Positions 7,749-8,375 of a stretch of DNA of 23,149 bases are shown in pieces. The stretch is from positions 1-23,149 of IMG/VR virus record IMGVR_UViG_3300031702_000051; one strand, given 5' to 3'. The notes under the pieces were generated by a model, which worked only from the letters and a program-made list of their open reading frames with translations, did no database searches and was not told the origin of the DNA. Source of the stretch: a virus. Position numbers and translations under genes: made by a program. Numbering within the stretch: position 1 is the stretch's first letter; the number at the start of each line of letters is the position of its first letter.

Positions 7749-8375
7749 ATGAAAAATCAAGCAATCGCAACTTCAACTACCCTAAAGGGTAACCCAGCTT
7801 CTTCGACTAAGATCAGCACTGTGTTGATTCCCAAAGGGAATACCGAAAAGAAGGTCTATACCATCGAAGATGCTGCATCAGACTATGAAAAAATCACGAA
7901 GCAACGTAGCAGAAACCTAAAGGTTTTCATCAAAATTGGGTCGATTCTCAATGTCTTGCGAGATGAACATCTCTCTGACAAAGACTTTGGCGATGCAATA
8001 AAGAAAACCGTCTTATCGAAGATAAGTGCAAGAGATCGGAATGACTTTATGTGGCTTTCAGCCAACAAAGAAGCAATCTCTGCTTTCAAGGAAAGCCATG
8101 ACATTACATCCTCATCACCTGATTATCTTCGTAAGAAGATGAGACAAGCCGACAAAAAAGCAGAGGAAGCGAAGCTTAATATTGTCGATGGAGACACCGA
8201 AGGTGGCAAGGAAGCTTTAACATCTAATGACAGCCAAACCACTGAAAGTGGCAATCACCCAAAACGAGATATCGTAGATATCGCAAAAGGTGTCATTGCA
8301 GAGTGCAATAATAATAACATAACTGTGAAACAGTTGATTGCTGCCTTGCAAGCTGAGTTGAAGCTTACAAAGTAA
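7749..8375 (+). CDS. Stand-alone early protein of unknown function (208 aa)
   Basis: I do not recognise a family. The N terminus is Ser/Thr-rich. The central part (about 40-130, containing DYEKITKQRSRNLKVFIKIGSILNVLRDEHLSDKDFGDAI and SARDRNDFMWLSANKEAISAF) is a helical, charged domain. A Lys/Glu-rich helix follows, then an acidic linker, then a C-terminal helix with DIAKGVIAECNNNNITVKQLIAALQAEL. It looks cytosolic. It is the only gene here with its own promoter (7660) and its own terminator (8398), so it is likely expressed early and separately, perhaps as a regulator. Its ribosome site GGAG lies in the loop and arm of a small hairpin (7733-7745). The coding sequence holds at least 17 mini-hairpins, including one over the stop codon, so its codon choice appears constrained at the DNA or RNA level. 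Confidence 0.8.
   Translation: MKNQAIATSTTLKGNPASSTKISTVLIPKGNTEKKVYTIEDAASDYEKITKQRSRNLKVFIKIGSILNVLRDEHLSDKDFGDAIKKTVLSKISARDRNDFMWLSANKEAISAFKESHDITSSSPDYLRKKMRQADKKAEEAKLNIVDGDTEGGKEALTSNDSQTTESGNHPKRDIVDIAKGVIAECNNNNITVKQLIAALQAELKLTK

Follow-up and report, generated by a model that had tools for sequence, protein, structure and literature searches.

The window analysed here, a 23,149-nucleotide stretch of viral DNA, is part of the genome of a marine podovirus of the HMO-2011 type. Its large terminase shares 70% identity with that of the Roseobacter phage CRP-1, 69% with that of HMO-2011 and 68% with that of CRP-345. The HMO-2011-type group has been described as a dominant one with a wide marine distribution (PMC9038755). 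Late genes run leftward over positions 1-6754 and early genes run rightward from 7749 on, with a noncoding control region (6755-7748) between them. The first long early gene, at 7749-8375, belongs to a family that we name gp01, and it lies in a tract rich in small perfect hairpins. The features are listed below; noncoding hairpins given with no other basis were read from the sequence.

7152-7192, - strand: three DnaA-box-like sites (TTATNCACA), left of the tract, a possible origin
about 7250-9750, + strand: hairpin-rich tract, noncoding DNA and first early genes, from sliding counts
7355-7369, + strand: hairpin AACATC-GAA-GATGTT, noncoding, identical in the relative L002
7447-7459, + strand: hairpin GCACC-AAA-GGTGC, noncoding
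7510-7520, + strand: hairpin CACC-AAA-GGTG, noncoding
7552-7562, + strand: hairpin CATC-GAA-GATG, noncoding
7577-7591, + strand: hairpin AACAAT-GAT-ATTGTT, noncoding
7624-7637, + strand: hairpin TACCCTTTAGGGTA, noncoding
7660-7689, + strand: sigma70-like promoter TTGACA-18-TACTAT, repeated at 9062
7749-8375, + strand: gp01, first early gene, 208 aa, densest hairpins; family in 18 genomes plus HMO-2011 gp74
7778-7791, + strand: hairpin TACCCTAAAGGGTA, in gp01
7827-7841, + strand: hairpin ATTCCC-AAA-GGGAAT, in gp01
7862-7872, + strand: hairpin CATC-GAA-GATG, in gp01
7913-7926, + strand: hairpin AAACCTAAAGGTTT, in gp01
7960-7973, + strand: hairpin GAGATG-AA-CATCTC, in gp01
8012-8026, + strand: hairpin CTTATC-GAA-GATAAG, in gp01
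8052-8064, + strand: hairpin TGGCT-TTC-AGCCA, in gp01
8082-8096, + strand: hairpin GCTTTC-AAG-GAAAGC, in gp01
8125-8140, + strand: hairpin ATCTTC-GTAA-GAAGAT, in gp01
8167-8177, + strand: hairpin AAGC-GAA-GCTT, in gp01
8195-8205, + strand: hairpin CACC-GAA-GGTG, in gp01
8239-8251, + strand: hairpin CCACT-GAA-AGTGG, in gp01
8268-8282, + strand: hairpin GATATC-GTA-GATATC, in gp01
8295-8309, + strand: hairpin ATTGCA-GAG-TGCAAT, in gp01
8321-8335, + strand: hairpin AACTGT-GAA-ACAGTT, in gp01
8363-8377, + strand: hairpin GCTTAC-AAA-GTAAGC, spanning the gp01 stop codon and ending 2 nt beyond it, with a copy at 8815-8829
8397-8416, + strand: terminator-like stem and T run, 3' of gp01
8505-8519, + strand: hairpin CCTTTA-GGG-TAAAGG, 5' of the next early ORF
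8815-8829, + strand: hairpin GCTTAC-AAA-GTAAGC, before the ORF at 8841

Several other elements accompany the early genes. The DnaA-box-like sites (TTATACACA, TTATCCACA, TTATACACA) all point the same way and fall within a 41-bp part of the control region. A near-palindrome, GGTTGGGGATATCCCCGACY, occurs at 7603-7624, 8479-8500, 8791-8812, 9120-9141, 9482-9503 and 12148-12169, 5' of early ORFs and in both orientations, and close behind several copies come another small hairpin and a ribosome-binding site; the near-palindrome resembles start-associated sequences or an operator. The promoter block CTTGACA...TACTATGTAATGGC is also repeated, near-identically at 7659-7697 and 9061-9099 and in diverged form at 9929-9967 and 12073-12114. 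Proteins of the GP88 and DUF932 families are encoded at 10010-10762 and 12468-13319.

The original prediction put at least 17 perfect stems of 4-6 bp with loops of 1-4 nt inside the gene; 24 can be counted, some of them overlapping. All seven of the 6-bp stems with 3-nt loops that it listed (7827, 8012, 8082, 8268, 8295, 8321 and 8363) are present, as are CATC-GAA-GATG at 7862-7872 and AAGC-GAA-GCTT at 8167-8177. Its expectation of about 0.15 such cases is correct for equal base frequencies, 0.1-0.4 being the right figure for the actual composition, and the gene does have its own promoter-like sequence (7660-7689) and terminator-like stem with a T run (8397-8416). Codon-preserving shuffles fall well short of what is observed: stems of at least 6 bp with loops of 2-4 nt number 10 against a mean of 0.58 and a maximum of 3 in 1000 synonymous-codon shuffles (0/1000 reach 10), those of at least 6 bp with 3-nt loops wholly within the gene number 6 against 0.39 (maximum 3), and those of at least 5 bp number 12 against 2.1 (maximum 7). 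Codon-order and mononucleotide shuffles agree, and the shuffles rule out codon bias or composition as the cause. By the same computation, the maximum per 500 bp is 7 in the window and 10 in CRP-1, as compared with 4 in the first 30 kb of N4, 2 in T7 and 4 in lambda. The gene for a Mom-like DNA modification protein (16851-17501; PF25680, E 2e-41), which had been thought by eye to lack hairpins, shows no excess in sliding counts.

What is the unit that carries the hairpins? The gene had been proposed, and it is indeed dense inside, but sliding counts show an excess over about 7250-9750 that includes the noncoding DNA on either side of gp01, the first hairpins lying about 300 bp 5' of its promoter. 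A single gene as the unit is rejected, because the tract crosses gene borders and coding and noncoding densities are equal (124 triloop hairpins in 44.5 kb of coding and 54 in 19.2 kb of noncoding tract DNA, pooled over relatives). In pooled counts of stems of at least 5 bp, density is 1.6-5 stems/kb from -6 to -1 kb of the gp01 start, rises to 6.5 at -1000 to -500 and 11.8 at -500 to 0, peaks at 23.3 over 0 to 500, and then falls through 18.5, 14.4, 11.1, 9.2 and 7.6 to about 4 near +4.5 kb. The field is thus one-sided, with no leftward extension and a decay to background over about 4-4.5 kb that ignores gene borders. Overall, the hairpins are not regularly spaced (mean gap 61, sd 77). GC skew tracks the strand on which the genes lie and is uninformative for mapping an origin. 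A DnaA-dependent origin was rejected as a general explanation, as the three boxes of the window have no clustered counterpart in relatives, which hold at most scattered single sites.

The form of the hairpins is narrowly defined. In pooled cores, perfect 6-bp stems with loops of 3-4 nt number 397 against 45 in dinucleotide shuffles, as compared with 117 against 74 for 6-bp stems with one internal G-T pair and 86 against 72 with one A-C. Tolerance of G-T is low by a second count as well, which gives 190 against 24 with none, 100 against 62 with one and 68 against 68 with two. The excess of stems of at least 6 bp is greatest for 3-nt loops (11.4-fold), followed by 2 nt (7.6), 4 nt (6.8) and 5-6 nt (about 3). 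With 3-nt loops the probability that a stem grows is 0.54 from 4 to 5 bp and 0.57 from 5 to 6, and drops to 0.27 from 6 to 7 (shuffled 0.22-0.28); the excess stops at 6 bp, so the selected size is six pairs. On the + strand, GAA is found in 30 triloops against 3.4 expected, AAA in 19 against 6.6 and GGA in 10 against 1.5. A 5'C-G3' closing pair is enriched (81 vs 28) and its mirror G-C depleted (13 vs 31), and the combination cGNAg reaches 22 against 0.17, a 132-fold excess, with 4 against 0.12 (34-fold) for its complement cTNCg. This loop bias marks the + strand in noncoding DNA too, where GAA is again the commonest loop of the tract (9/54).

Are these the rules of DNA or of RNA folding? Fitted together in a logistic model that contrasts real with shuffled hairpins, DNA energy has coefficients of -0.94 (loop 3) and -0.59 (loop 4), and RNA energy +0.12 and -0.06. 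When the comparison is restricted to hairpins with Watson-Crick pairs only, the two energies are about equally good at telling real from shuffled (AUC.60 for RNA,.56 for DNA), so the inference of DNA rests mainly on intolerance of G-T, preference for triloops and the identity of loop and closing pair. The tetraloops cGNRAg are enriched (8 vs 0.3), and the DNA-only tetraloops cGNYAg and cGNABg show no clear enrichment (1 and 1). Single-base changes in stems leave more A.C than G.T mismatches on the + strand, which leans to the - strand, in pair counts that are not independent. A search of Rfam matched no described RNA family. Overall, the tract shows the preferences of hairpins formed by DNA, on the + strand.

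Comparison of relatives reveals selection on the stems. When stems of at least 6 bp are defined in one sequence and scored in the other, differences among close relatives at third codon positions are 0.073 in stems, 0.132 in loops and 0.141 elsewhere, and in noncoding DNA 0.051, 0.145 and 0.087; stems change at about half the surrounding rate, while loops vary freely. With a union mask over stems of at least 5 bp, which lumps gains of hairpins with losses, no constraint on stems was seen; the one-sequence scoring supersedes that test. Homologues keep the stems above random substitution: in gp01 203/255 hairpins are still perfect against 107 expected under random placement, and in noncoding DNA 106/118 against 61, in relative pairs that overlap, so that the trials are not independent. 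The 255 gp01 hairpins comprise 197 unchanged, 6 changed yet perfect and 52 broken, from which it follows that repair of a hairpin is not fast. At 70-80% identity, 63% of double changes give back a Watson-Crick pair, as compared with 39% for control pairs. In more distant homologues the same codons bear hairpins in which both arms have changed, including at places where the amino acids differ (AAGTTGGAACAACTT vs TTGAAGGTACTTCAA; GTCCAACGTTGGAC vs GTCCGATGTCGGAC). The tract is a field of structure-selected mini-hairpins of about 6 bp with loops of about 3 nt, with no stem consensus and individually replaceable. Since individual hairpins turn over, it is the field, and not any single site, that seems to be selected.

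Two further observations concern hairpin change. In loci L087-L111, a control-region hairpin about -40 to -80 from gp01 (CTCACTGTTAAGTGAG, CTCACTTTAGTGTGAG, CTCGTTCTTTACGAG) keeps its structure with stem and loop sequence changed. The peptide VSNVGQS, encoded across the hairpin GTCCAACGTTGGAC of the CRP-345 gp01 (L004), recurs in an unrelated small early protein (ORF 2082-2231), which looks like the copying of a hairpin segment from one gene into another.

HMO-2011, CRP-1, CRP-345 and more than 20 metagenomic relatives have the same tract where their early region begins. Relatives of gp01 were found in 26 viral contigs, and each of the 29 copies scanned, some of them near-identical, has 3.3 to 7 times the stems of its own synonymous shuffles. 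HMO-2011 gp74 is a member of the family (E = 2e-43) that lies immediately before the start point of that record and holds 18 stems of at least 5 bp against 2.5. The near relative L002 keeps the hairpins, with visible substitutions outside them in the shared part of gp01. Among loci found by their terminase, L037, L043, L050, L053, L067, L070, L071, L074 and L084 have the same peak at the strand switch, L065 has it weakly, and L081 has none. Tract and gp01 are both absent from ten related genomes (CRP-2, CRP-235, CRP-603, CRP-207, CRP-13, CRP-738, CRP-3, HTVC033P, HTVC104P and ctYwJ313). The gp01 protein gave no confident match for its function in Pfam, PHROGs or PDB sequence or fold comparison, its predicted fold is helical (mean pLDDT 73), and no bacterial genome with gp01 was found. 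The DUF932-type protein, too, tracks with the hairpin-bearing clade.

Several known systems share part of this picture. The early promoter hairpins of phage N4 are alike in their stem of 5-7 bp, 3-nt loop, 5'C-G3' closing pair, 5'G..3'A loop and place in the early region (PMC4496689). Unlike the three sequence-specific promoters of N4, the tract has dozens of varied hairpins in a decaying field that lies mostly in genes, and N4 itself reaches only the 4 stems per 500 bp given above. The extraordinarily stable mini-hairpins of the d(GCGAAGC), or C-GNA-G, type share loop and closing pair with the tract. They are a chemical motif, present at single sites and used in biosensors, and are not known as a selected field of several kilobases. 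In single-stranded DNA phages and plasmids, initiation hairpins such as G4 oric and RSF1010 ssi form on exposed single-stranded DNA near replication starts, but these are few, long and conserved in sequence, and do not lie in coding sequence with a gradient of distance. The lambda origin in gene O likewise places replication sites (annotated iterons) within early coding sequence, although these are four direct repeats of fixed sequence with no hairpins. The SAS/ESAS of cluster K mycobacteriophages are short repeated elements with inverted repeats 5' of genes; they resemble the GGTTGGGGATATCCCCGACY copies of the window but, being conserved in sequence and outside genes, do not explain hairpins within genes. 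Palindromes of the REP/BIME type are conserved and mainly intergenic, whereas the stems of the tract are varied and equally dense in genes. No comparable system was found in the open-access papers searched, and the T7, lambda and N4 controls have no such field.

What, then, could the hairpins do? The + strand is here the non-template strand for early transcription, and the displaced, lagging-template strand of a rightward fork. The best explanation, offered tentatively, is that the selected hairpins act on the single-stranded + strand near the early control region. That strand would become single-stranded in a transcription or R-loop bubble, or in a replication bubble opened there, and would fold into mini-hairpins near the early promoter or a possible origin. 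The hairpins might keep it from re-annealing or from being coated, and might offer folded sites to a protein, either for replication or primase loading or for the protein that the first gene itself encodes; how far the single-stranded zone reaches would show in the rightward decay over about 4.5 kb. Action on the exposed + strand is favoured by the N4-like preference for loop and closing pair together with the loop bias that marks this strand. In N4, the 5'C-G3' closing pair and 5'G..3'A loop are needed for hairpin extrusion, and the single-stranded DNA-binding protein (SSB) melts the opposite-strand hairpin but not the C-G-closed one (PMC4496689). The C-GNA-G loops of the tract are of the type that survives SSB in N4. 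Of the roles first suggested for the hairpins, one on single-stranded DNA is the best supported, by the choice of loop and closing pair, the low tolerance of G-T and the joint energy model.

A role in the transcript, also suggested at the outset, is disfavoured. Stems acting in early mRNA, through stability, translation pacing or protein binding, would fit a loop bias on the transcribed strand, the enriched cGNRAg tetraloops and the promoter and terminator of gp01, but G-T pairs are hardly tolerated, triloops beat tetraloops, RNA energy adds nothing in the joint model, no Rfam family matches, and the hairpins reach 5' of the gp01 promoter and are equally dense in noncoding DNA, which together make this reading quite unlikely. 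It is less improbable, though still unlikely, that the gp01 protein recognises the shape of DNA mini-hairpins, both in its own gene and in the neighbouring control region, for example to organise the start of replication or to regulate itself. HMO-2011, CRP-1, CRP-345 and the window have both gp01 and the tract, the ten genomes named above have neither, the tract peaks on gp01 itself, and identical hairpin copies recur within one genome. The positives look like one terminase clade, however, which other genes such as that for DUF932 also track, so the co-occurrence may be descent; L050, L065 and L071 have hairpins with no detectable gp01, and the helical fold has no confident match.

Could the hairpins instead be a by-product of mutation? 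A phage polymerase that switches template near an origin, copying arm to arm, would make and repair perfect hairpins with no function. Pairing is perfect, individual hairpins turn over, and clustered changes in one arm do create perfect stems, as in L106 (CAGATCAACGATCTG) against L111 (CAGATCAACTCGTTG), where the flanks are identical (50/50). Copying should, however, give open-ended lengths, and the excess ends at 6 bp; neutral conversion should leave divergence in stems unlowered, yet they change at half the rate; changed hairpins should be mostly perfect, and the broken ones far outnumber them; and the better aligned one-arm cases, about 15/28, show no clear excess over chance. We consider template switching quite unlikely as the explanation, although clustered one-arm changes may be the origin of new hairpins. 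The original comparison with the hairpin promoters of N4 holds for geometry and closing pair (PMC4496689), but that a virion RNA polymerase uses every hairpin as its promoter is hardly credible: there are dozens per 3 kb, stem and loop bases are not fixed for recognition, + strand hairpins would transcribe leftward, against the early genes, and a host-type promoter precedes gp01. A search for PF00940 found no virion RNA polymerase in CRP-1, HMO-2011 or CRP-345, with a control search equally silent, and four large proteins of CRP-1 and CRP-345 had no PHROG match.

A broader reading, to which we give an even chance, is that in this clade of dominant marine phages the first early genes are overlaid by a DNA secondary-structure code. 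This would be a polar field of hairpins of about 15 nt, of no set sequence, resistant to SSB, lying on one strand and collectively selected; it would be active while infection or replication begins and that strand is single-stranded, and an early protein dedicated to the task would possibly read it. In a double-stranded DNA virus it is rare to see selection on DNA secondary structure inside coding genes; the evidence for it here comes from synonymous sites, compensatory changes and the chemistry of the loops. The tract yields a testable claim as to which strand becomes single-stranded, at what place and over what distance, and cultured phages exist both with the tract (HMO-2011, CRP-1, CRP-345) and without it (for example CRP-2). 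It is also a warning that synonymous sites in hairpin-bearing genes are not neutral.
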